Assembly (NCBI GenBank): GCA_029559475.1
Contig: JAKQBN010000031.1
Span: forward strand, 1-25,187
Reading direction: 5' to 3'
Length of the DNA: 25,187 bases
Source: a bacterium
GTDB lineage: Bacteria > UBA4055
Part shown: in pieces, positions 3,435 to 25,187 of the stretch
Numbering within the stretch: position 1 is the first letter of the stretch
Layout: each line of letters begins with the position of its first letter
Notes under the pieces: model-generated
The model's database searches: none
What the model saw: only the letters and a program-made list of their open reading frames with translations
What the model was told of the DNA's origin: nothing
Translations under genes and position numbers: made by a program

Positions 3435-4796
3435 TCACTTCTTCTTTTTCAGCCCTTCGCGTTTGATCTTATCGGGATAGTAGATACCCTCGCATCCGGA
3501 AATTATCGAAGCGTTGTCAATGTCCCCGTTCTTGAAATTTATTATAATTTCATCTCCGAGAAGGTAATTGGACGCTTCCGAGGTTTTCTTTTTCTCCCTT
3601 CTGATAAAATACAAACCTTCTGCCTCTTTTGAAACAATTATTTTCGAAATTTCTTTGTCGGAAAACCACAGATTCATCAGTTTTCCCTTTAGAAAATCGA
3701 GTTCGTCCGGATTTTCTTTATCGGGTTTTGATTCAAAATAGGGATTTCCGTAAACCGTTCCCTCTTTCGGATATGTTTCCTTTTCATCCATTACCAAAGA
3801 TACCGAATCGCCGGTTACAGTATGATATTCATAAGTGATAATCGGTCTGTCAAAGAATTTTACAGTTCCTGTCTTCTGATCATAAGATGCGTGTTTTGTG
3901 TCTATGTTTAGTTTATTTTGTTTTATATTGACCTTTCCGTAAGCGTCTCCCCGTGCAAGTTCTTCATTATATTTTATTCTGTCCGCCTTAAAATATATCG
4001 TGTCCTGCTCAAGTCTGTCGATCTGAGTGAAGCTGCATTTTCCGATGGTTTCCACATCTAGGTTTTCGAACAAAAACTTTCCTCTTTCTGCAGAAAAAAA
4101 AGCGTCTTTTTTTACAGGCAGTTTCTGAACTATCTTTGAAATTTTAGCCGGATCGGCCTTACGAAAGTCCATGTACGGATCAATAAATTCGTGAGATTCG
4201 ACATTAAATCTGCTGTCGAAAGAAAGAAGTTCTTTTCGGACATCATAACGGAATTCCCGTGTTTTGAGTCTCGCGTATCTTAGCGAATCGATATAAAGCA
4301 CGCTGTCCACATCGTTTGAAGTCACGATATCATTTTTCGTGTCGTATTCCAGCCTTTTGCACCAGAGCGCCGACATATAACTGTAATATTTAACAATTAC
4401 CGAATCATACACCGAAACGCTGTTGTTTATTTCATTCATCGAGGCGTTCTTACCCGTGATCAGAAAATCTTTTTCTGTAATTCTTATGTCCCCGGAAAGA
4501 TAGGCTAATTTACCGTTCGGCGTTTTCGACAGGGTCGCGTTCGAGCATTTGATGGTTCTTGAAGTATCGCTGAACAGAATGTTCCTGAACAGCCTCGCGT
4601 TCGTCATATCTCTGTCGATAACTGCGCTGTCGCATTTCACTCTGTAAATATCGTATTCGATATCGATATTGCCGTAGATGGTCTTTCCGCCCAAAGGATT
4701 CTGTTTGAGAATATCCGCACTGTTGATCTTTAAAAGGGTCGCCGAGTTGAGCTGCACCAAAACCAGTATCAGTATTTTGAAACAGTACCGATTCAT
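3435..4796 (-). CDS. OstA-like (LptA/LptC-type) periplasmic LPS-transport protein
   Basis: The 453-residue protein starts with a signal peptide (hydrophobic residues about 5-20). It then shows the repeating short beta-strand pattern of the OstA/LptA fold: YGNIDIEYD, LSGDIRITEKDFLITGKNAS, then YGKVNIKQNKLNIDTKHASYD. In FCB bacteria OstA-like proteins of this size build or cap the LPS bridge across the periplasm. Its position directly before lptB supports that role. It begins with an ATGA overlap (4 bases) with coaX. There is no LPS-porin C-terminal domain, so it is not full-length LptD. The family call is good; the exact place in the Lpt bridge is inferred. Confidence 0.87.
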   Translation of the reverse strand: MNRYCFKILILVLVQLNSATLLKINSADILKQNPLGGKTIYGNIDIEYDIYRVKCDSAVIDRDMTNARLFRNILFSDTSRTIKCSNATLSKTPNGKLAYLSGDIRITEKDFLITGKNASMNEINNSVSVYDSVIVKYYSYMSALWCKRLEYDTKNDIVTSNDVDSVLYIDSLRYARLKTREFRYDVRKELLSFDSRFNVESHEFIDPYMDFRKADPAKISKIVQKLPVKKDAFFSAERGKFLFENLDVETIGKCSFTQIDRLEQDTIYFKADRIKYNEELARGDAYGKVNIKQNKLNIDTKHASYDQKTGTVKFFDRPIITYEYHTVTGDSVSLVMDEKETYPKEGTVYGNPYFESKPDKENPDELDFLKGKLMNLWFSDKEISKIIVSKEAEGLYFIRREKKKTSEASNYLLGDEIIINFKNGDIDNASIISGCEGIYYPDKIKREGLKKKK

Positions 4797-5515
4797 TTGT
4801 TCATTCTGCTGATTATATAAGCGCCCATGGGAACGGTATGTTTCTCGACAGTATGATCGAAATCCACGAGCTGTGAGATCAGTTCAGCGTCGCCGCCTGA
4901 AAGAACAATATGCAGCTTAGCAGACAGTCTTTCGGAGATCTCTTTTATAAAATCATTACATACTCCGGCGATTCCGTTCTGAACTCCGGACATGATGCAT
5001 TCTTTGGTTGAGCGTCCTATGAATACTCCGCTGTCCAATTTCTCATTAAGTTCCGGGAGGAGTGCGGTTTTTTTTGCCAGCGCTTCGAACTGAAGCCTTA
5101 TTCCGGGCAGGATCATTCCGCCCTCGAATTCGCCGCGTCCGCTGATTATTTCGAAAGTTACGGCAGAGCCAAGATCGATCACGACGGCGTTCTTTTTAAA
5201 ATTTTTTACTGCATAAGCGACATTGCACAGCCTGTCTATCCCGAGTTCCGTAATGTCTGTATATCTGCTTTTCAGATCTTTATAATGTTCATGTCTGATT
5301 ATAAAAGGATCAGATCCAGATGCTTTTCTGACCGCATCAGATGTGAGATCTGTTTTTTCAGGAACTACGGATGCAATAATTATCTCCGGAGCCGGTTTGC
5401 CGGATACTGTTTTTTTCAGCGTCTTTACATCAAAGAGCGCGCTGTTTGTTACGCATCCGTTTTTTAATTCATATATCTTTGAAGATGTGTTACCAATGTC
5501 GACAACTAACGTCAT
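4793..5515 (-). CDS. coaX: Type III pantothenate kinase
   Basis: It phosphorylates pantothenate with ATP in the first step of coenzyme A synthesis. The 240-residue product carries the ASKHA-fold motifs in order: the phosphate-1 loop VDIGNTSSKIY at 5-15, GIDRLCNVAYAVKNF (substrate loop) near residue 92, VVIDLGSAVTFEII with the phosphate-2 GSAVT, GGMILPGIRLQFEAL, and a C-terminal LSGGDAELI adenosine loop. The length is slightly below the usual 250-260. It sits 3 bases after rsfS and overlaps the OstA-like gene by 4 bases. CoaX is usual in lineages lacking CoaA. Confidence 0.96.
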   Translation of the reverse strand: MTLVVDIGNTSSKIYELKNGCVTNSALFDVKTLKKTVSGKPAPEIIIASVVPEKTDLTSDAVRKASGSDPFIIRHEHYKDLKSRYTDITELGIDRLCNVAYAVKNFKKNAVVIDLGSAVTFEIISGRGEFEGGMILPGIRLQFEALAKKTALLPELNEKLDSGVFIGRSTKECIMSGVQNGIAGVCNDFIKEISERLSAKLHIVLSGGDAELISQLVDFDHTVEKHTVPMGAYIISRMNK

Positions 5516-6713: not shown

Positions 6714-7517
6714 TCATTCGTCTTTCAGGCTGTCTTGCGCAACTGTAGATTTCGTAAGAGACGAGATCAGCAGACGTATCTTCGCTCCCTGATAAACTAT
6801 CTCGCCGGGAGCAGGTTTCTGATCTATGACCGTATTCGGCAGAAGTTCCGTATTCTTGTAGTACACAATCTCAGATATTTTGAATCCGCCCCGTTTTAAA
6901 GTTTCAGCGGCGTTCTTGAGAACCTGTCCTTTTACGTCAGGGATTATGTATTCCGAAGGATGCTTGCCCACGCTTACTACAATGAAGATCCTGTCCCCGA
7001 TGTCCACAGTATCATTCACAACTAATGACTGACCCATTACCACGCCGTCAGGATACTGCTCGCTGAATTCATATAAGACCGTGTCGGGTACAAGTTTCGC
7101 CTCGGCGATCTTATAAAGCGCGTCCTGGGGCGACATTCCGATAAGCTCGGGAACAATTGCCGGCTGTGCGCCTTTAGATACCGTCACATATACTTTTCTG
7201 CCGCGCTTGCACTCAGATCCGGCTTTCGGATGCTGATCAAGTATCGTACCAGCGGGTTTATTGAAATCCACTTTTTTCGTTATCTCGTCAGACAGAAAAA
7301 AGCTGTCAGTTTCAAGAATCGTTCTGGCCGAATCAATGCTCATTCCGATAACAGAAGGGATCTCGAATTCCTGACCTGCCCGTGTATATTCCGGCATAAT
7401 TATAGTATCAAGATACATAACGACCGAGAACATTATTATTCCGAGAACGAACATCGAGACCAGAATTGAAATATAATAGGTTTTAACGAACGTATAAACC
7501 GCTTTAACGAACTTCAT
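6714..7517 (-). CDS. Membrane-anchored triple-PASTA domain protein
   Basis: The 267-residue protein has one N-terminal transmembrane helix (about residues 15-37) and then three PASTA domains in the periplasm (about 50-118, 120-186 and 190-255). Each has the PxVxGM/Q...A...L pattern and the later Q.P..G pattern. No kinase domain is present, unlike Firmicute PknB/StkP. Stand-alone PASTA proteins of this shape are common in FCB bacteria and are thought to bind peptidoglycan or division proteins; that role is from general knowledge. The start at 7517 was chosen for AGGAA six bases upstream; it overlaps the cyclophilin gene by 14 bases. It lies 35 bases before cdsA. Confidence 0.9.
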   Translation of the reverse strand: MKFVKAVYTFVKTYYISILVSMFVLGIIMFSVVMYLDTIIMPEYTRAGQEFEIPSVIGMSIDSARTILETDSFFLSDEITKKVDFNKPAGTILDQHPKAGSECKRGRKVYVTVSKGAQPAIVPELIGMSPQDALYKIAEAKLVPDTVLYEFSEQYPDGVVMGQSLVVNDTVDIGDRIFIVVSVGKHPSEYIIPDVKGQVLKNAAETLKRGGFKISEIVYYKNTELLPNTVIDQKPAPGEIVYQGAKIRLLISSLTKSTVAQDSLKDE

Positions 7518-8100
7518 TTTTATTCCTGTAGAATTCAAATTTCTCCGAATCGAAATATTTTTCGAGATATGCTTTGTTTATTTTTATTTCCTTAAACGGA
7601 TCATCAGTCGAATCACGAGGAGCTAAGGATATTTTTTTCGCCGTATCGAATCCTTCAGCCGTCCGTCCAAATACGGTATATTTTCCATCGAGATGAGGGA
7701 GTTCTTTCATGCATACATAAAATTCGAATTTATCAGATCTTTTTTCCGGGTTGACATCATCGCCCATCCTCGCTGCCGCAAGCGCTCCTTTAAAATGGAT
7801 CTTATGGATCTCGGGAGGTATTGTCGCTTCCTCTACCGTAGAGTCTCTTCCCGCCTGTATAACAAAATCCGGAATTACCCTGTGAAAGATCTTTCCGTTA
7901 TAAAAACCTGACGAAACAAGGTCTTTAAAATTCTTTACATGACCCGGAGCGGCATCATCGAAGAACGTGAACCTGATTGTTCCGGAATCAGTCTCGAATA
8001 CAGCTGAACTGACTGTATATTTCAGGCTGACGCATTTTCCGCACTGTGCTGAAGTCATGAAATAGAAAATAAATAATATGAACGGGACCGCTTTTATCAT
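7504..8100 (-). CDS. Periplasmic cyclophilin-type peptidyl-prolyl isomerase
   Basis: It catalyses cis-trans isomerisation of prolyl bonds in exported proteins. The 198-residue product has an N-terminal signal peptide (hydrophobic about 3-17) and a cyclophilin core: VKNF..LV..GFY.G..FHRVIPDFVIQAGRD with the catalytic Arg in FHRV, then GALAAARM and LDGKYTVFGR. The usual GSQFFI stretch is replaced by KFEFYV. A Cys follows the signal helix (SAQC), but Gln at -1 is a poor lipobox, so a lipoprotein is doubtful. It heads the leftward run. No Shine-Dalgarno lies before the ATG, consistent with the leaderless promoter arrangement noted at 8107-8135. Confidence 0.92.
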   Translation of the reverse strand: MIKAVPFILFIFYFMTSAQCGKCVSLKYTVSSAVFETDSGTIRFTFFDDAAPGHVKNFKDLVSSGFYNGKIFHRVIPDFVIQAGRDSTVEEATIPPEIHKIHFKGALAAARMGDDVNPEKRSDKFEFYVCMKELPHLDGKYTVFGRTAEGFDTAKKISLAPRDSTDDPFKEIKINKAYLEKYFDSEKFEFYRNKNEVR

Positions 8101-16219: not shown

Positions 16220-17521
16220 ATGAAATTAAGAAAATTATTCTACAATACCGTTCTCAAGATATATAACAAACGGCTTTCATTCGAGTCGCTTTATTCTGAA
16301 GTGCTTGAAGGTCTGGAGGACAGGGAAAAGCGAAGGCTGATCAATCTGGTCAACCAGTTTTTCAGGAATTTTAATTATCTCGAACAGTATTTTATTGAAA
16401 ATATCGATAAGAATATTGATGATCAGGAATTAAAGATCAGTATGCTTATCCTGTGCGCAGGAACGGAGTATTTTTATCTCGACAGCTCAACGGATTATTC
16501 GGTAGTGAACGATTTCGTGGAGATAGCGAAGGAGGAGCTGGGACAGGGCAAAGCCAAATATATTAACGCGATCCTGAGAAAGATGACTAAACTGACTTTG
16601 TCCGATGAGGATAAAGTTTCAAAGAAAGCGCTTTATCTGTCTCATCCGCAGTGGGTCGTTGACAGGCTTATAGAAAGCTACGGTAAGGAAACGTCAGAGG
16701 AAATGCTGAAATTCAATCAGTCGGTTCCGCCTGTTTATGTCAGGGCTAACCGGATAAAAAACAGCAGACAAGAGCTTAAGGTTCAATTGGAAGGCGAAGG
16801 AATAATTTCTTCCGATGTAGAACACTTTGAAGATTTTCTTAAGGTAGAAAAGGGCAATGTTCTTTCTTCACAATCATTTGAAGAAGGCAGGTTCTATATC
16901 CAGGACCCGTCGCATTCGCTGCCGGTTCTCGTGCTTGAGCCGAAGAAGAACGAAAAGATACTCGATCTGTGCTGTGCGCCGGGCGGAAAGTCAACATATA
17001 TTCAGGAGCTGACCGGCAATAAGGTCAAACTTCACCTGAACGATATTTCAATGAAGAAAAGAGTTCTGATAAAAATGAATTTTAAACGGCTGGGGCTTGA
17101 ATTCAATAAGCTGACCTTTCAGGAAGCCCAGAAATTTCAGGTGTTCGAGGAATTCGACAAGGTACTTATCGACGCTCCGTGCACAGGCAGCGGCAATTTC
17201 AGGCGTCATCCCGAGAGCAGGTGGAATAAGGATGAGGAGATGCTTTCTCAGCTTAATAAGCTCCAGCTTGACATTTTAAAAAGAGCGTCGAATTTCGTCA
17301 AGAAGAACGGGATAATGGTATATTCTACCTGCTCCATTTTTAACTGCGAAAATATGGATATCGTGCAGAAATTCATAGCAGATGACGATCATTTTATGCT
17401 CGATAAAGCTGATAACTCAAGTCTGGATATTTTCAAAAACGCGGACGGCAGCTATGCCGTTAATCCCGGCATTCATCATCACGAGGGTTCTTTCGCTGTC
17501 AGAATGAGAAGGGTTAGGTAA
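16220..17521 (+). CDS. rsmB: 16S rRNA m5C967 methyltransferase
   Basis: RsmB methylates C967 of 16S rRNA with S-adenosylmethionine. The 433-residue product has the NusB-like N-terminal RNA-binding domain (about 5-130) and then the RsmB/NOL1 catalytic domain: SAM-binding ILDLCCAPGGKS at 247-258, IDAPCTGSGNFRRHP with the release Cys321, and MVYSTCSIFNCEN with the nucleophilic Cys371. The final HEGSFAVRMRR segment is also typical. GGATGG before the ATG supports the start. It ends the rightward run. The NusB part distinguishes it from the shorter NSUN-type enzymes. Confidence 0.95.
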   Translation: MKLRKLFYNTVLKIYNKRLSFESLYSEVLEGLEDREKRRLINLVNQFFRNFNYLEQYFIENIDKNIDDQELKISMLILCAGTEYFYLDSSTDYSVVNDFVEIAKEELGQGKAKYINAILRKMTKLTLSDEDKVSKKALYLSHPQWVVDRLIESYGKETSEEMLKFNQSVPPVYVRANRIKNSRQELKVQLEGEGIISSDVEHFEDFLKVEKGNVLSSQSFEEGRFYIQDPSHSLPVLVLEPKKNEKILDLCCAPGGKSTYIQELTGNKVKLHLNDISMKKRVLIKMNFKRLGLEFNKLTFQEAQKFQVFEEFDKVLIDAPCTGSGNFRRHPESRWNKDEEMLSQLNKLQLDILKRASNFVKKNGIMVYSTCSIFNCENMDIVQKFIADDDHFMLDKADNSSLDIFKNADGSYAVNPGIHHHEGSFAVRMRRVR

Positions 17522-17579
17522 AGATAGTAACGGGTTCGCTTTTATCTGAATTATGAAAATCATGTATGAAGGTCTGTGA

Positions 17580-17921
17580 TCAAGACTTTGCTTTCAGCAC
17601 CATCAGAAGCAGCGTGTACGCGCCGGCTGTCAAAGCCGCAGAGATCAAAAGGCTAAGATAAAAATTGATCTGCATTTTCAAAAACACAGGCAGAGCTATG
17701 AACAGCACTAACGACGGGATCACCAGCCAGAAGATATCCTTCGATACTTCTGAAATCTTGGCAACGTCGCCCGTGTCGATATACATCCAGACGAACGCGA
17801 GAACCGATAACAGCGGCAGGGACGCCAGAAGCGCTCCCGCGGTCGAATTCCGCTTCGATATCTCTGATACAGCTACGATTATAACAGCCGATATGACAAC
17901 TTTTACGACGTAATAGATCAT
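17580..17921 (-). CDS. DUF3147-family membrane protein
   Basis: The 113-residue protein is almost entirely hydrophobic with four helices (about 3-21, 27-49, 63-82 and 86-109). The stretch VSEISKRNSTAGALLASLP, followed by WMYIDTGD, is characteristic of DUF3147 as I remember that family. Function is unknown. It is convergent with rsmB, 58 bases away. I see no clear terminator in the gap (17522-17579). Confidence 0.85.
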   Translation of the reverse strand: MIYYVVKVVISAVIIVAVSEISKRNSTAGALLASLPLLSVLAFVWMYIDTGDVAKISEVSKDIFWLVIPSLVLFIALPVFLKMQINFYLSLLISAALTAGAYTLLLMVLKAKS

Positions 17922-17963: not shown

Positions 17964-18095
17964 CTATTTATACTGTTTTTTTTCAACGCCATGCTTATCA
18001 GTCCCGAAGAAAGCGAACCAGAGAGTTCCCGCAATGCCGAATCCGAAAGCTGTGAGTAAATTTACCGATGGACTTATCATCCCCGTAAATTGCAT
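17964..18095 (-). pseudogene. Remnant of an MFS transporter 3' end
   Basis: The segment reads MISP.VNLLTAF, then GFG.AGTLWFAFFGTDKHG, the C-terminus of the intact MFS transporter encoded at 21812-23029, but it ends with a different tail (VEKKQYK then TAG). Bases 17988-18082 match 21821-21915 at 90 of 95 positions in the same orientation. Three of the five differences are silent third-position changes, consistent with past selection on a paralogous gene rather than fresh copying. The similarity stops sharply at 18083, 27 bases before the LamG protein stop codon. Nothing of the other about 370 transporter residues remains here. Confidence 0.8.
17988..18082. repeat. 95-bp direct repeat, copy 1 (MFS gene tail)
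   Basis: It is 90/95 identical to 21821-21915 in direct orientation, offset 3833 bases. Mismatches are at 18030, 18033, 18035, 18036 and 18068. The two copies bracket the 1187-residue protein gene. Confidence 0.93.
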
Positions 18096-18110: not shown

Positions 18111-21100
18111 TTATTTAATATTTTTAATGTCTGCATTATTTATTGGTCTTTTTGTTCCGCTTACAGCAACGACATAATAGAACTTCTTACTTTCTGAGTG
18201 TGCTATAGTCCAGCTTGTACCATCGAAGATACCTGAAGCCGATACATCTTGAAAACTGCCGTAAGGATCATCGGAAGCATACACCTTATATGAAGTTGCT
18301 CCGTGAACAGCATCCCAGATGATCTTAATGTCTAATCCGATTATCTCTGTAACGATATTTTGCGGGATGCTCAAGTTGTCGCTTGTTATAATAAGCTGAC
18401 TGAAATCAGTTATTCCGGAGAAATTAACCGTATTTGTAGCTGCGTCAACACTAACTGCGGTCAGGTTATAAGTCCAGCTGCTGTCCGAAGTGCTTGCACG
18501 GGTATAGAGTTTAATTTTGGCAGGATTAGACTCATCATTGGAAGTAAGATCTTCACTGAGAGTTAATGATATATCTGCCGAGAGCATGCCGGTACCGAAT
18601 TTATGTACTACCCAGTATTGAGAATCGAAAATTGTGACCGGATAAGGATTAATATTCGGAGGCAGATTGATTTTTGACACCACGAGCGTATCTGTTCCTG
18701 TCTTTGAAGTAACATTCATCGAAACTCCGGTTCCGGTAAAATCAACAATTCCAGTGGTGCTCACGATCTGCGAATTAACATGTCCGTCCCCGAACGGAAT
18801 AGTAGAATTTACCCAATCGGTATCATCCATATTTGTCAGTGTGCCCAAGTTCCCGCTAATTAAATCACTTGCAGTAGTACCTGATCCTTCATTAAATTGC
18901 CAATAGCTCACAAGCCCTGTTTCCGATCCGTCTAAAGGTAAATGAATATTTTCCCTAATCTCCTGCAGGCTTCGTACCGTATTCCAAAGTCTTACTTCCT
19001 CAATCTTACCGTCAAAGTATCTGGAATTAAAATCAACTCCAATCCTCAGAGGATCGCTGTTTGAATTTACCGTTAAAGGTGTGCCTGTTAAAGTTTGCTC
19101 AACTCCGTTCAAATATAACCTTCTTGTTCCGTTATTGTTAACCGCAGCTATATGATACCATTTTCCTTCTTCAAGGATACCGTTCGAAGTTGATAATTCG
19201 TCAAAGGTTAAACCTGTATAAGGAGATATGCTGCTTAGCCTCAGGGAATATCCGTTCGCGCTTGAAGTCTGATATTTTGAAACAATACCCGCCATAGTCG
19301 CGAATACGGAAGGCTTGATCCACGCTTCGATTGTATAATTGTTTGTAAGATCGAGACTGCTATCATCAGCGATTGTTGCATAATCATTCACTCCGTCAAA
19401 ATCCAAAGCAGTAACGGGTGCATTACCTATGCCGGCGCCTATACCTGTAAGAGTGATATATTTAGTTTCGCAATCTGTAGAAGAGTGAGTGATTGTCCCG
19501 TTGTATTCAATATTCTCAATTGGAGAAAATTTAACAAAAATGGTGTCAGATACAATTCCGTTGACCGGTGTAATTGATAAACTGTTAGAATAACCGGTGT
19601 TTTGCGACAACGATATATTAAATTCTGAGGAGACGGTTAAATTAAGATCTGACTTCAAATCTTGAGCGACTACATAATATTTTTTTACGGGAGAATTACC
19701 AAGAAGAACATTTCCGAAAGAAATGTCAGAAATTCCAGCCTGTTTATAATATTTAATATTGCCGTCTTTTTCACCGATAAGCACGTCAAGTAATCCGTCC
19801 CCGTCAAGATCGGTAAATGCAGGAGATGAGTAATATCCTACGTCAATTCCGTTGAAAGATTGAGTAACAAGCGTAAATGAGGTTGAATTTGCTGCGACTT
19901 GTTCATAGTGGTTAATATTACCGTCAAGCTCACCTACAAGCATGTCAAGTAATCCGTCACCGTCAAGATCGGTAAATGCAGGAGATGAGTAATATCCTAC
20001 GTCAATTCCGTTGAAAGATTGAGTAACAAGCGTAAATGAGGTTGAATTTGCTGCGACTTGTTCATAGGGGTTAATATTACCGTTAAACTCACCTACAAGC
20101 ATGTCAAGTAATCCGTCCCCGTCAAGATCGGTAAATGCAGGTGAAGAGTAACCTCCTACATCTATTCCGTTAAAAGATTGAGTAACAAGCGTAAATGAGG
20201 TTGAGTTCGGTGAACTTTGCTCATAATGGTTTATATTGCCTTCATTGTCACCGATTAGCATATCAAGTAATCCGTCACCGTCAAGATCGGTAAAAGCGGG
20301 GGCTGAGTAAGCTCCTACATCAATTCCGTTGAAAGATGCTGTAACAAGAGAAAATAAAGTTGAATTTGCTGCGACTTGTTCATAATGATTTATATTGCCG
20401 TCATACTCACCGATAAGCATGTCAAGTAATCCGTCCCCGTCAAGATCGGTAAATGCAGGTGAAGAGTAACCTCCTACATCTATTCCGTGGAAAGATGCTG
20501 AGATCGATTCGAAATTATTCAGGTCTGTTAAAGTTATGGATGGTGGTAGATATTCTCTCGAAACGATAAACTGACCGAAACCGGAAATACCGTTGAAAGT
20601 TGCAGAATTTACGGCAAAATTAACACTAGATGCATCTTTTAGATACAGCCATTCTGTGTCTAAATTGCTGTTTCTTTCGTAAAGCGTTATCTTAGACGGA
20701 TGTGAAGCATACCAATCTTCAATATCCTCGCTTACTTTATAGTTCACATCAGCAGAAATTGCACCTCCGCCGAAGCTGTTTATCACCCAGTATTGCGAAT
20801 CGTATGTTTCATCTATACCGGTCGGCAGAATATTCGGGGGGATATCAATCTTCGAAACTATAAGCGTATCTGTCCCTGTCTTTGAAGTAACATTCATCGA
20901 AATTCCCGTTCCTGTAAAATCAACACTTCCAGTAGTACTGATAATTTTCAAATCTGACGAACCCGTGCCAAACGGTATTTTTGAAGATACCCAGTCCGAG
21001 TCATCCATATTGTAAAGAGTGCCGCTCGCTCCTCCGACAGCGTCCGACAGCGCAGTTCCGGATCCTTCATTGAACTGCCAGTTGTTTAAAAGTCCCGTTT

Positions 21101-21674
21101 CCGTTCCAGTTAAGGATAAGTGCATATTTTTTCGTATTTCGTCAGCTGTTCTCGCAGTATTCCATATCCTGACCTCATCAAGTTTTCCCGATAATGCTTC
21201 AGCAGAAGTGCTTAGGTAGAAAGTTCCATCGGAGGCGTATAAACCACCGGCAGGTACAGTTGTTTTCATGAGCCTGCCGTTATAATACAATTTCATCGTT
21301 GTGCCGTCATAAGTCCCCGCAACATGGAACCATCCGCCTGTAGTCAGAATATTATCGATCACGATACTATATAAGCTACCGTCCGTTTTCCTAATATAAA
21401 AATGAAGCTGATTTGTACCGCTTGCGCCGTCATATCTTAAAACTGCAACTTCGGGAACTATTGATACATATCTCTGTATCTTTCCCGCTGAAAGTTCGTT
21501 ATGATATACCCATGCCTCTATTGTGACCGCTGTCATCGAAGTACTTATCCCCGAACCGGAAACGTAGTCGTTCACGCCGTCGAATTCGAGACATTTGCCG
21601 GGAATAGTGTCAACAGCAAAAACCTGCAGAATTGCCGCCAGCAGGAAAGTAATTAAATAGCCCGAGAGTTTCAT
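18111..21674 (-). CDS. Large secreted LamG / FG-GAP repeat / Fn3 surface protein
   Basis: The 1187-residue protein has a signal peptide (1-20), LamG/concanavalin-like domain 1 (about 28-235), a linked beta-sandwich module (244-373) and five FG-GAP/VCBS-type repeats of 53 residues (392-642), each with a calcium-binding DLDGDGLLD. An ASH/HYDIN-like Ig domain (645-748), a second LamG (755-962), a second copy of the beta-sandwich module (969-1097) and an Fn3 domain (1101-1172) follow. The LamG-sandwich unit is therefore duplicated. No YPNPFNP-type sorting domain follows the Fn3; the last 15 residues look like an unstructured run to the stop. Likely a surface adhesin or glycan binder. GGAG seven bases before the ATG supports the start. 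Confidence 0.92.
19745..20505. repeat. Five tandem 159-bp repeats in the surface protein gene
   Basis: The same site within the unit (GTCAAGTAATCCGTC or one change) starts at 19785, 19944, 20103, 20262 and 20421, exactly 159 bases apart each time. The two leftmost units are almost identical at base level, including silent sites, which points to recent copying or gene conversion. Each unit encodes one FG-GAP repeat. Confidence 0.97.
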
Positions 21675-21811: not shown

Positions 21812-23029
21812 CTATTCTTCGCCATGCTTATCAGTCCCGAAGAAAGCGAACCAGAGAGTTCCTGCGACACCGAATCCGAAAGCTGTGAGTAAATTTACCG
21901 TTGGACTTATCATCCACAAAAAAGCACCGGAAAAGGCTGAGACGGAGACTACGGAATCTCTTACAAGATAATACAGACCGAACATACTTGCCTTTCTGTT
22001 TTCAGGCGCAAGTTCCATAATTAGTGTTTTTCTCGTAGGCTCACCAAATTCCTTTAAACCGCGGAGGAAAAAAGCGAGAATCAGCATCGTAAACGAATTC
22101 GTAAAAAGTAAAGCTAACGGGAAAAAAGTAAAAAAGACAAATGTCATTAAGACAAAAGGTTTCTTTTCTGTATTATCGGCAAAATAAGCTACGGGAATAT
22201 AAACGACCATAGCCGTGACCATTTCGACCGTAGTCAGAATTCCGAATTCGAAGGCCGATACAGGATTCGTTATCGTCTGCATGCACCATACAACAACAAA
22301 AGCATAAGGGATTTGTTCGCAGAACCTGACGAGAATATCTGAAACAAGAAGTCTTTTTAAGGAGACCGGCATTTCCTTCCATAATTTTAAAGGATTTTTT
22401 GTTGCTGAATTTTTAAGACTCTCCGTTTTGTCGTTTTTATGATCCGTTATCATGATCTGCTGTAATACTGTAGCGACAAGCGCAAGAATAAGAGCAACGG
22501 AAAACCCTATTTTTATACCGGTTTTTATGCCTAAAGCGGTAATAAACGCCCCGCCGATGAGGGGTCCGAGGAACATCGGGATCCGCCTGACAAGAGAGTG
22601 TACCGACATACCCATAGTTCGCTTATTCTTGGGCAGAACATCAGAAATGATCGTAACTGTCGCAGGCAGTGAAATCGCTGTCCATGATAAAAAAAGAAAA
22701 GAAGCCGCTATAACAGCCTGCCATTCGGGAATAATTATCACGATAATAAAGCCGGTCATGGCTAAAATGTTAAAAATCAAAAGGGATTTTTTTGTACCGA
22801 CCTTCTCGACAAGATAACCGCCGGGAAAAGAGTACAGAGCTGAAAGAAGATTGTCAAGCCCGTTAAGTAATCCCACCGACCAGAGACCGCCTCCGAGAGC
22901 TAATAGGTACATCGGCAGGAATCTTTCAGCCATTTTCTCGCCGAGGCCGACGAGAATGACCATAGAGAGTAAACCCAGGATACTTTTCTTTAATCCTAAA
23001 AATGCTGATGTTTTTCTTATCCTGCTCAA
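21812..23029 (-). CDS. MFS transporter
   Basis: The 405-residue protein has twelve hydrophobic segments in two halves and the MFS loop 2-3 signature in degenerate form (GGYLVEKVGTKKSLL). FLRGLKEFGEPTRKTLIMELAPENRK is a conserved loop in the second half. The substrate is unknown. The gene starts with TTG at 23029, since no ATG precedes the first helix. It is preceded in the same frame by ATT and then the TAG stop of the ChrB-domain gene, a gap of three bases, with AAAGAG as a weak ribosome site. Its neighbour suggests metal- or oxyanion-related efflux, but that is inference. Its last 95 bases are repeated at 17988. Confidence 0.9.
   Translation of the reverse strand: MSRIRKTSAFLGLKKSILGLLSMVILVGLGEKMAERFLPMYLLALGGGLWSVGLLNGLDNLLSALYSFPGGYLVEKVGTKKSLLIFNILAMTGFIIVIIIPEWQAVIAASFLFLSWTAISLPATVTIISDVLPKNKRTMGMSVHSLVRRIPMFLGPLIGGAFITALGIKTGIKIGFSVALILALVATVLQQIMITDHKNDKTESLKNSATKNPLKLWKEMPVSLKRLLVSDILVRFCEQIPYAFVVVWCMQTITNPVSAFEFGILTTVEMVTAMVVYIPVAYFADNTEKKPFVLMTFVFFTFFPLALLFTNSFTMLILAFFLRGLKEFGEPTRKTLIMELAPENRKASMFGLYYLVRDSVVSVSAFSGAFLWMISPTVNLLTAFGFGVAGTLWFAFFGTDKHGEE
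21821..21915. repeat. 95-bp direct repeat, copy 2 (within the intact MFS gene)
   Basis: This is the partner of 17988-18082 (90/95 identical). This copy lies inside the intact transporter gene and encodes its last 31-32 residues except the final two. Confidence 0.93.
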
Positions 23030-23032
23030 AAT

Positions 23033-23464
23033 CTACTCTTTCGCAGTTTGCAATCTGCACCATGCGTATAATGCGTCATAAACATAAAACTGATGCTCAA
23101 GATTTTCGAGGTCTTCAGGATATCTTAGACTATAGCCTACCGCAATAGCCTCAACTCCGGCAGCGATAGGATCCTTGTCGAACGAGTCAGTGTCGGCGGC
23201 ATTAATAATTTTTGACATTCTGAGCAGAGCTTCATCTTTCAACTCATATTTTTTTATTATGCTTACAAAGGAACATTCATCTCCATGATGTCCAAGCTCA
23301 GCGTTGGGGATATCAAACGGTATCGCACCTGAAGATCTTGCTGTTTCTTCGACACTGCATTTCGGCACGAATATGAATTCAGCCTCAGAGTCAACGAATC
23401 GTGATATAAGCCACGGGCAGGCGACTCTGTCAACATGTACGTGCGATCTTGTAATCCATTTCAT
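23033..23464 (-). CDS. ChrB C-terminal-domain protein (chromate-resistance family)
   Basis: The 143-residue protein begins KWITRSHVHVDRVACPWLI, followed by SRFVDSEAEFIFVP, the hallmark of the ChrB_C family. It continues with FDIPNAELGHHGDECSFVSII and a helical end. Conserved His, Asp and Cys residues (HVDRVACPW, HHGDEC) probably bind a metal. In ChrB this domain accompanies a chromate-sensing region; the stand-alone form is common and often sits beside transporters, as here with the MFS gene. AGGA eight bases before the ATG supports the start. It ends in TAG followed, in the same frame, by the MFS gene. A chromate role is a family label, not shown. Confidence 0.9.
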   Translation of the reverse strand: MKWITRSHVHVDRVACPWLISRFVDSEAEFIFVPKCSVEETARSSGAIPFDIPNAELGHHGDECSFVSIIKKYELKDEALLRMSKIINAADTDSFDKDPIAAGVEAIAVGYSLRYPEDLENLEHQFYVYDALYAWCRLQTAKE

Positions 23465-23480
23465 ATATTTTCCTAATTTT

Positions 23481-23503
23481 ATTTCCTCAAAAATCCGTAT
23501 TCA
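23481..23503. repeat. 23-bp perfect direct repeat, copy 1
   Basis: It is identical over 23 bases to 24890-24912, 1409 bases away. This copy sits between the AlbA_2 gene and the ChrB gene, and the AlbA_2 stop codon TGA (23503-23501) is its first three bases on the minus strand. Confidence 0.95.
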
Positions 23504-24865
23504 ATTTTCTAAAATCTCAACAATTCTCTTACCGAATTCTGTCAACTTATACATTTGCATACTGCTTCTTGGTTTTTCAGGTATTGTCATTTCAATCAAT
23601 TTGTGTTCTAAGGCGGGTTGCAGATAATTGATCCTGAAATTCTCTCTGTCTGCCAGTTGTAATTTATCCTGTAAATCCTGCCTGTTGTGCTCGCCTGTCA
23701 TTACAGATAATAATCTTCTGACTTGCGGGGTCACTTGCGGGGTCACTTGCGGGGTCACTTCACCTTGTTTTGTTTTATAAAGAACTACCTGCAAGCCTCC
23801 GTCCATCTCATTGATATCCGGATCAGGAAGCTTTGCTTCTTTACAGGAATTGATTATTTTTAGAATACCGCGACCCCATGTGTCAATGTAACCAGCCTTG
23901 AAACACGCATCAGCTAAATTCGGATTTCTCGGGCGTGAGTTATGTTCTTTTCTCAGGTTTTCAAGGGATAAACCCTGTGGAAGTGTGCCTTCGTTCCATA
24001 TAGACAGTCTGTCGTCAAAGACCCGAATCTGTACAGGTGCTCCCATATAAGTCCTGTGAACAAGGGCATTTAGCAGCATTTCTCTTAAGGCGGCAAAAGG
24101 ATATTCGTATTTTTCTATTCGCTGTAAGCCTTCAAAGGCTACGGGTCTGGTTAAAAACTTATAACTCAATTGAACAAAAACTTCATTAAGAATATAAACA
24201 AGATTACCTTCAACTATCTCGTGAAATTTAAGGTCTGATGAATCTTTACCGAATCTGCCGATCTTTACCTGAATATTTGGAAAAAATCTGTTCGGGTCTT
24301 TTCCGAAAAGAATTATAGCAGCTCTTTTGATCTTTCCGTGTTCAGTCAAACGGAGTTTATCAAGTATCTGAGTTGCGCTTAATCCGTCGGTGTCAGGCAT
24401 CCTGCCTTTTTCCTTGCTGTCTTCAACAAATTTTGCAATGCTCTTTTCGTCAATATCTTGAATTCCTGCTCTATCCTCAATAACATCATCCCATGTCTTA
24501 CCGGCTTTTTTTAAAAGAAATTCGTTAAGCTCAACACCTGTCAATTCCAGGTTTGTGCTGCCAGTCCTATAATAATACCTGCCTCTAAAAGAAACAGGAA
24601 CCGAATACGGATCAACCTGAATTGAAATATATTTCTTCCCGTTTTCATCGTGAAGCTGAATATCGCAAATTATCCCCATCGAATTGCGGATTTTTTGAGG
24701 AATATTTTCCATCAAGCTTTTATAATCTTCAATATCAACAGCATTTCCGCCATCATCTTTGCCGATAAAAATAGTACCGCCGATCGCATTTGCAAATCCG
24801 CAGACCCATTTCAGATATTCATCTTGCCAGCTTTGCTTATATTCTATATTTTGTTTTTCAGGCAT
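23501..24865 (-). CDS. AlbA_2/GHKL-type DNA-binding ATPase-like protein
   Basis: The 454-residue protein has an N-terminal AlbA_2 (Schlafen-type) domain (about 5-120: E.KQSW..E.LKWVCGFANAIGGTIFIG.DD.G), then a GHKL-type ATP-binding region with N-box REMLLNALVHR (about 261-271), NEGTLPQG and GYIDTWGRGILKI (about 325-337). A flexible linker of three VTPQ repeats and a C-terminal winged helix (about 385-454) follow. Such proteins are annotated as transcriptional regulators or RecG-like and are abundant in accessory DNA. ATG at 24865 was chosen because GAGG lies nine bases upstream; the ATG at 24880 overlaps that site. A 23-bp direct repeat brackets the gene. Confidence 0.9.
   Translation of the reverse strand: MPEKQNIEYKQSWQDEYLKWVCGFANAIGGTIFIGKDDGGNAVDIEDYKSLMENIPQKIRNSMGIICDIQLHDENGKKYISIQVDPYSVPVSFRGRYYYRTGSTNLELTGVELNEFLLKKAGKTWDDVIEDRAGIQDIDEKSIAKFVEDSKEKGRMPDTDGLSATQILDKLRLTEHGKIKRAAIILFGKDPNRFFPNIQVKIGRFGKDSSDLKFHEIVEGNLVYILNEVFVQLSYKFLTRPVAFEGLQRIEKYEYPFAALREMLLNALVHRTYMGAPVQIRVFDDRLSIWNEGTLPQGLSLENLRKEHNSRPRNPNLADACFKAGYIDTWGRGILKIINSCKEAKLPDPDINEMDGGLQVVLYKTKQGEVTPQVTPQVTPQVRRLLSVMTGEHNRQDLQDKLQLADRENFRINYLQPALEHKLIEMTIPEKPRSSMQMYKLTEFGKRIVEILEN
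23721..23760. repeat. 12-bp tandem repeat, three units
   Basis: ACTTGCGGGGTC occurs three times in a row (23721-23756) plus four bases. On the minus strand it encodes the VTPQ repeats in the linker of the AlbA_2 protein. In-frame units of 12 bases can gain or lose copies without frameshift. Confidence 0.95.
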
Positions 24866-24887
24866 AAAATAATTCCTCATACGGTCT

Positions 24888-25187
24888 TCATTTCCTCAAA
24901 AATCCGTATTCATAGACCTTTGGTTCGATCTTCTTAGCCAGTATTTTCAGCTTGTCACGAAGGTCGCCGATCAGTTTCATATAAATTTCGTCATTGCTTT
25001 TATTGTGCATCTTGCCTTTTTCGTCCCTGCCCTGAAAGTGTTCACGAATGTCGTATAATGAAGCATTTACGTTGCATTTAGGCTGCTTGTGATAATATCT
25101 CCAAAGCTCTCTGCCCGTATCAAAAACGGCTTTAGCCGCATCTGAGAATTCCAATGGTGTAGTTCTATCATGCTTAGCATCAAAAAG
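24888..25187 (-). CDS. C-terminal part of an unrecognised protein (runs off the window)
   Basis: The frame is open to the window edge (99 codons plus TGA), so the start lies outside. The visible part is helical and charged: AAKAVFDTGRELWRYYH, NVNASLYDIREHFQGRDEKGKMHNKS and then ILAKKIEPKVYEYGFLRK at the end. It resembles the C-terminal tails of large multidomain proteins (possibly of restriction-modification type), from vague memory only. No function is assigned. The last seven residues are encoded within the 23-bp repeat. A TTG at 25154 could be an internal start, but continuation of the frame makes a longer gene likelier. Confidence 0.7.
   Translation of the reverse strand, partial: LFDAKHDRTTPLEFSDAAKAVFDTGRELWRYYHKQPKCNVNASLYDIREHFQGRDEKGKMHNKSNDEIYMKLIGDLRDKLKILAKKIEPKVYEYGFLRK
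24890..24912. repeat. 23-bp perfect direct repeat, copy 2
   Basis: This is the same 23 bases as 23481-23503. On the minus strand this copy encodes the EYGFLRK end of the upstream partial gene and the first base of its TGA stop codon. Confidence 0.95.

Follow-up and report, generated by a model that had tools for sequence, protein, structure and literature searches.

The AlbA_2 gene in this stretch of DNA was probably inserted at the 3′ end of its neighbour, a restriction-modification (RM)-like gene that we call X, with duplication of that end, as in insertion with long target duplication (ILTD). The locus is most likely a case of this known, but mechanistically unexplained, kind. The window, that is, the whole stretch analysed, is an entire contig (C68, 25,187 bp) of a 2.28-Mb metagenome-type draft genome (G000), and the order on its minus strand is X, repeat, AlbA_2, repeat, ChrB_C, MFS, LamG gene and small membrane protein gene. 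The features are as follows.

24888..25187, minus strand: 3′ part of gene X (contig overlap, family alignment, structure and fold search); the rest lies at C26:10825-13074
24887..24912, minus strand: outer repeat copy, the native X 3′ end (EYGFLRK and TGA); exact over 23 bp at 24890-24912
23501..24880, minus strand: complete AlbA_2/HATPase_c_4/Fic-like_C gene, 459 aa (PF04326, PF13749, PF21247; dN/dS 0.07)
23478..23503, minus strand: inner repeat copy, the duplicated X 3′ end, which provides the AlbA_2 stop TGA; exact over 23 bp at 23481-23503, with 17 bp retained in G008
23033..23464, minus strand: ChrB_C gene, which the inner copy now precedes (PF09828)
21812..23029, minus strand: MFS transporter gene, target of a second putative 3′-end insertion in the window (PF07690)
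21820..21915, minus strand: copy 1 of a 96-bp repeat, the MFS gene 3′ end; 94.8% identical to 17987-18082
18111..21674, minus strand: LamG/FG-GAP gene, a single-gene insert between the 96-bp copies (Pfam scan and repeat comparison)
17987..18082, minus strand: copy 2 of the 96-bp repeat, a leftover MFS 3′ end (..AFGFGIAGTLWFAFFGTDKHG..; repeat comparison)
17580..17921, minus strand: 113-aa membrane protein gene, right edge of the variable locus, common to G002 and G008

Apart from these features, a 40-bp intergenic stretch of the window, at about 17517-17556, is an interspersed repeat: G000, G001 and G002 hold copies of it at several sites, with 88-97% identity.

The 3′ end of gene X is found at both ends of the AlbA_2 gene

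Pairwise comparison within the window showed that positions 23481-23503 and 24890-24912 are identical at 23/23 bases and directly oriented, exactly as an earlier note on this DNA had described. The repeat can be extended to 23478-23503 and 24887-24912 with 25/26 nt in common, the copies beginning TTTATTTCC versus TTCATTTCC. The sole mismatch lies in the stop codon, which is TGA in the X copy and TAA in the duplicate, where the same note had read it. On the minus strand, the outer copy occupies the interval from 32 to 10 nt 5′ of the AlbA_2 start codon, and the inner copy starts at the AlbA_2 stop codon (TGAATACGG...); the two copies thus do sit at the two ends of the gene, as had been claimed.

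The repeat is genuine and well above chance. In 600 trials with 180-bp random flanks of matched dinucleotide make-up, the longest common match did not exceed 12 bp, and about 1e-9 matches of 23 bp are expected between two such flanks. No third copy of the 23-bp motif was found in the 2.28-Mb draft genome with up to 3 mismatches allowed, and the motif was absent from the 2.9 million viral contigs searched. With just this one pair in the genome, the motif is no ordinary scattered repeat between genes, a possibility that the earlier note had raised; both an interspersed repeat and an att site were rejected on these counts.

Neither a transposase domain nor an integrase was detected in the AlbA_2 insert, in agreement with the earlier note, or in the neighbouring genes scanned by Pfam, and the insert has no inverted repeats at its ends. 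The AlbA_2 protein scores above the Pfam cut-off for PF04326 and PF13749, and its domain order and full length are those of AlbA_2 (Schlafen-type)/HATPase_c_4 proteins with a Fic-like C-terminus, which are common in the bacterial family of the window and on plasmids. Unlike most of these relatives, which are devoid of such repeats, the focal gene follows an RM-like gene whose end, the target, is duplicated. At 23721-23760 the gene contains an in-frame 12-bp tandem repeat (VTPQ, three and a bit units), with one unit more in G008, which forms a length-variable linker preceding the C-terminal domain.

Gene X belongs to an RM-like family

The window ends inside X, and its sequence depends on joining two draft contigs through an exact 141-bp assembler (k-mer) overlap with the end of contig C26; once joined, X encodes 802 aa and is not a small gene. 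Scanning five members of the X family gave no Pfam match and no clear NCBIfam match, and a PDB sequence search with the X profile returned spurious Rab matches only. In the family alignment, WxExK is invariant, the D33 residue before it is nearly so, and an NPPY motif is present. The AlphaFold model of the X homologue L096 (mean pLDDT 83.7) has DrdV as its best fold match, followed by CamA and LlaBIII, with a global TM-score of only 0.27. DrdV is a single-chain RM enzyme. Motifs and fold match indicate a nuclease motif and an N6-adenine methyltransferase motif in one X chain, and from these X is predicted to be, most likely, a single-chain (Type IIG/IIL-like) RM-type enzyme.

A single scan yielded 430 confirmed relatives, which are proteins of about 800 aa found mostly in Bacteroidota. 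The C-termini of the aligned relatives read (K)VYxYGFLK/R or a close variant. Therefore, 24890-24912 is the native X end and 23481-23503 is the duplicate, and the assignment of the outer copy to the end (EYGFLRK) of the neighbouring gene, made earlier from the window, was borne out.

We then considered 88 X loci from other genomes (L096-L175 and L177-L180), comprising 80 from one species-genome scan, four on viral contigs and four from whole-genome searches. AlbA_2 was near X in none of them (0/88), and none had a downstream copy of its own X 3′ end (0/88; longest match 8-12 bp). From the first of these counts, AlbA_2 is an addition behind X in the lineage of the window. Tandem X genes occur at 8 or more of the 88 loci; their 3′ ends agree almost completely over about 30 bp, and further upstream they are often only about 60% identical.

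The locus is old and lies in a hotspot

An orthologous AlbA_2 locus is present in G008, which belongs to another genus of the same family, with 92% amino acid identity in AlbA_2. The AlbA_2 genes of the two genomes differ by a dS of 0.46 and a dN of 0.034 (dN/dS 0.07), and AlbA_2 therefore appears to be old at this site and under purifying selection; by these rates the gene is functional and the insertion old. In G008 the order is HAD-type gene, toxin-antitoxin pair, first 20 X codons, AlbA_2 and membrane protein gene, X being deleted from about codon 20 to just short of its end. This genome retains 17 bp of the inner copy (GATTTTTGAGGAAATAA) and, on the outer side, TGAGAAAATGA. DNA identity between G000 and G008 reaches 89% in AlbA_2 and 83% in the X promoter region versus 71-73% in the flanking core genes, and for this reason the X-AlbA_2 block was probably transferred between genera as one unit.

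Within the genus of the window, G002 has the HAD and membrane protein genes with X, AlbA_2, ChrB and MFS all absent between them, which identifies the locus as a hotspot. Within the family, X was found in G000 only, plus the remnant in G008. In no genome searched was X joined directly to ChrB, and the family holds no other ChrB_C gene through which the empty site could be sought. The earlier proposal of a one-gene insertion that leaves its target intact is sustained by the duplicated X 3′ end and by the 0/88 count, and the focal empty site that it called for was not found.

The divergence of the repeat itself is at odds with such an age. At a dS of 0.46, a neutral 26-bp copy is expected to show about 6 changes with respect to the X end, whereas 1 is observed, a gap that calls for gene conversion, constraint or a more complex history; copy-to-copy conversion or constraint may have acted on the repeat. 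We also observed internally deleted AlbA_2 remnants in L036 (G003:C91, 336-514) and L039 (G002:C81, 6489-6596), in which ~35 codons from the start of the gene survive at 81-87% DNA identity.

The same architecture surrounds other cargo

The window contains a second single-gene insert of this anatomy, the LamG/FG-GAP gene, which lies between 96-bp copies of the MFS 3′ end that are 94.8% identical. About 438 kb of G000 was sampled for further repeat-bracketed inserts. In contig C37, the last 56 bp of an ABC permease gene are repeated at 93% identity (C37:57118-57173 and 58922-58977, or L183 17118-17173 and 18922-18977), and the copies enclose a VapBC-type toxin-antitoxin pair and an XRE gene. 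In G003:C305 (L205) the permease end is joined directly to sequence homologous to the region beyond the G000 inner copy, with a score of 54 against that region and 22 against the insert side. By this comparison G003:C305 is the single-copy empty site of the permease/toxin-antitoxin insert. The kind of comparison suggested in the earlier note, fruitless at the AlbA_2/ChrB site, succeeded at a sister locus.

Weaker cases in the same 438 kb concern the 3′ end of an ATPase gene (55 bp, 82%) and, with 28 bp each, a VWA gene and an ORF6N gene; for the VWA gene, in C37, the empty site was not found, the whole segment being missing from relatives. Repeats at IS21-like ends and between tandem paralogues (MacB-type permeases, the C44 pair and the C47 paralogous family) were discarded as irrelevant. 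Downstream copies of gene 3′ ends with a score of at least 18 numbered 5 in about 438 kb, one tandem paralogue pair and one case beside IS ends included; each of the six control placements gave 0-3. From locus to locus, the repeats (26, 56 and 96 bp) are unrelated in sequence and length.

X itself is found as cargo. It is bracketed by 31-137-bp repeats at 7/88 loci, as compared with 4/279 control genes (Fisher p = 0.005). At L116 the final 137 bp of prfC, together with its stop codon, recur after X at 97% (4732-4868 and 7504-7640); at L118 X lies at the 3′ end of the gene for a CoA-transferase subunit (4899-4946 and 7560-7607); and at L144 the metG terminator is repeated around X. At L135 the repeat duplicates the 5′ part of rpiB; therefore 3′ ends are not the sole targets. 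The neighbour names prfC, metG, rpiB, HAD, VapBC, XRE and CoA-transferase were read by eye from sequence. In the L118 copy behind X the final stretch differs, as if the CoA-transferase gene had got a foreign end. For the MFS and CoA-transferase genes, the slightly different ends on the two sides would agree with a donor that had its own version of the end; drift accounts for them too.

The repeat architecture is thus not specific to AlbA_2. Conversely, when about 40 other AlbA_2 loci were surveyed, as the earlier note had suggested, the longest flank-to-flank match was mostly 5-10 bp. Besides the 23 bp of the window, longer matches came from a tandem AlbA_2 array (39) and from single pairs of 24 bp and 13 bp, so that repeats of at least 20 bp flank AlbA_2 at two other loci only (the array L006/L036 and L022). 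In L022 the 24-bp direct repeat lies at 138-161 and 1884-1907 around an AlbA_2-type gene, and on one side similar sequence continues past the repeat.

Discussion

ILTD is known for RM genes (PMC3031569, PMC3874152, PMC4978471, PMC1643837), and the first three of these papers cite Nobusato et al. (2000) and Furuta et al. (2010) for it. It is an integrase-free, RM-linked form of gene gain, first described in Helicobacter, with duplications on the order of 100 bp. The focal AlbA_2 behind X resembles it in the direct repeat of target sequence that encloses the gene and here equals the target 3′ end, in the lack of a transposase or integrase within the insert, and in its link to an RM gene, X being predicted as such from motifs and fold. 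A parallel is the H. pylori RM cluster flanked by a direct repeat and thought to have been inserted into another RM cluster (PMC4978471). The cases described here differ from ILTD in their cargo, which is AlbA_2, a LamG gene and toxin-antitoxin genes and not RM genes only, and in their targets, which are mostly gene 3′ ends. As to length, 26 bp contrasts with about 100 bp and lies at the short end of a range from tens to about 100 bp, which also holds the 56 and 96 bp of the parallel cases. The failure to find the focal empty site, the short duplication, the mere 17 bp of inner copy in G008, the 1 change versus about 6 and the draft state of the assembly, with X joined across two contigs, speak against this assignment.

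The main rival, since tandem X arrays are common, is that a second X once followed and the inner copy is all that is left of it, from an X-AlbA_2-X array or an X-X array invaded by AlbA_2. The near-identical 3′ ends of tandem X genes over less similar upstream sequence, and the TGA/TAA difference between the copies, which is frequent among tandem X genes as well, fit this history. It would, however, require a loss that ended precisely at the AlbA_2 stop codon and spared 25 nt; there is no X similarity before TGAATACGG, and an X-AlbA_2-X array was seen at none of the 88 loci (0/88), so we regard it as unlikely. Less probable still is a site-specific cassette, in which AlbA_2 with a 3′ attachment site would circularise and integrate at the X 3′ end through a recombinase acting in trans. 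Genomic islands and ICEs that use gene 3′ ends likewise duplicate the target end as att direct repeats and restore its function, and several inserts in G000 share this geometry. By contrast, our inserts carry one or few genes and no common att between loci, the repeats of 26, 56 and 96 bp being unrelated, no integrase was recognised in the genes scanned by Pfam, and the motif is a single pair in the genome and missing from the viral contigs. Three related candidates were set aside: a transposon or IS with target-site duplication (terminal inverted repeats and transposase both absent), an integrase-borne island (integrase absent from the insert and the neighbouring genes scanned) and an integron gene cassette (motif unique, repeats elsewhere unrelated).

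We give little credit to an ordinary operon in which the repeat is coincidental or serves as a shared ribosome-binding or terminator sequence. The GAGGA within the repeat could indeed be a ribosome-binding site, and in G008 it lies 10 nt before the next start codon; but 23 identical bases with EYGFLRK codons in non-coding DNA are too much for a 5-6-bp motif, the chance expectation is about 1e-9, and the 23-mer does not recur at other gene ends. Least credible is the idea of the earlier note that the AlbA_2 protein moves its own gene. In favour of such a self-mobilising element, the repeat brackets the gene exactly and no partner transposase accompanies it. This reading is nonetheless unsupported, because the flank survey was negative, because AlbA_2, a GHKL ATPase and a Fic-like winged C-terminus make no recombinase, and because the same repeats surround unrelated cargo; AlbA_2 has moreover been long at its site (dS 0.46), and we rejected it.

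We return to insertion with target duplication as the best reading, and infer that the process behind the sister cases also gave rise to the focal repeat. According to this model, a piece of roughly 1.39 kb with the AlbA_2 gene would have inserted at the X 3′ end and directly duplicated 26 bp of it, leaving X intact while the duplicate end supplied the AlbA_2 stop codon. AlbA_2 would not be the driver of this event, because the LamG gene, the VapBC-type and XRE genes and X itself show the same anatomy. The chemistry may be staggered breakage and fill-in, or alternatively a crossover between the 3′ end of the host gene and the same 3′ end on a donor or circular copy that also holds the cargo. 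After insertion, X and AlbA_2 would have been inherited or transferred jointly, and in G008 X would later have been deleted with AlbA_2 retained.

These observations touch on the question of how defence and regulator genes arrive and stack up without transposases. The AlbA_2 locus, the LamG case and the permease case with its empty site provide concrete two-copy and one-copy junctions outside Helicobacter, and the unannotated X family provides an RM-like set for counting and testing insertions with target duplication. A wider proposal, which we advance tentatively and hold to be doubtful, is that the family of the window and the carriers of X in general gain modules of one to few genes in an integrase-free manner that favours 3′ ends, copies 25-140 bp with the stop codon among them, and so leaves the target gene unharmed. 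If this were true, it would amount to a general and unrecognised route of neutral gene accretion, in which X is both cargo and landing site.
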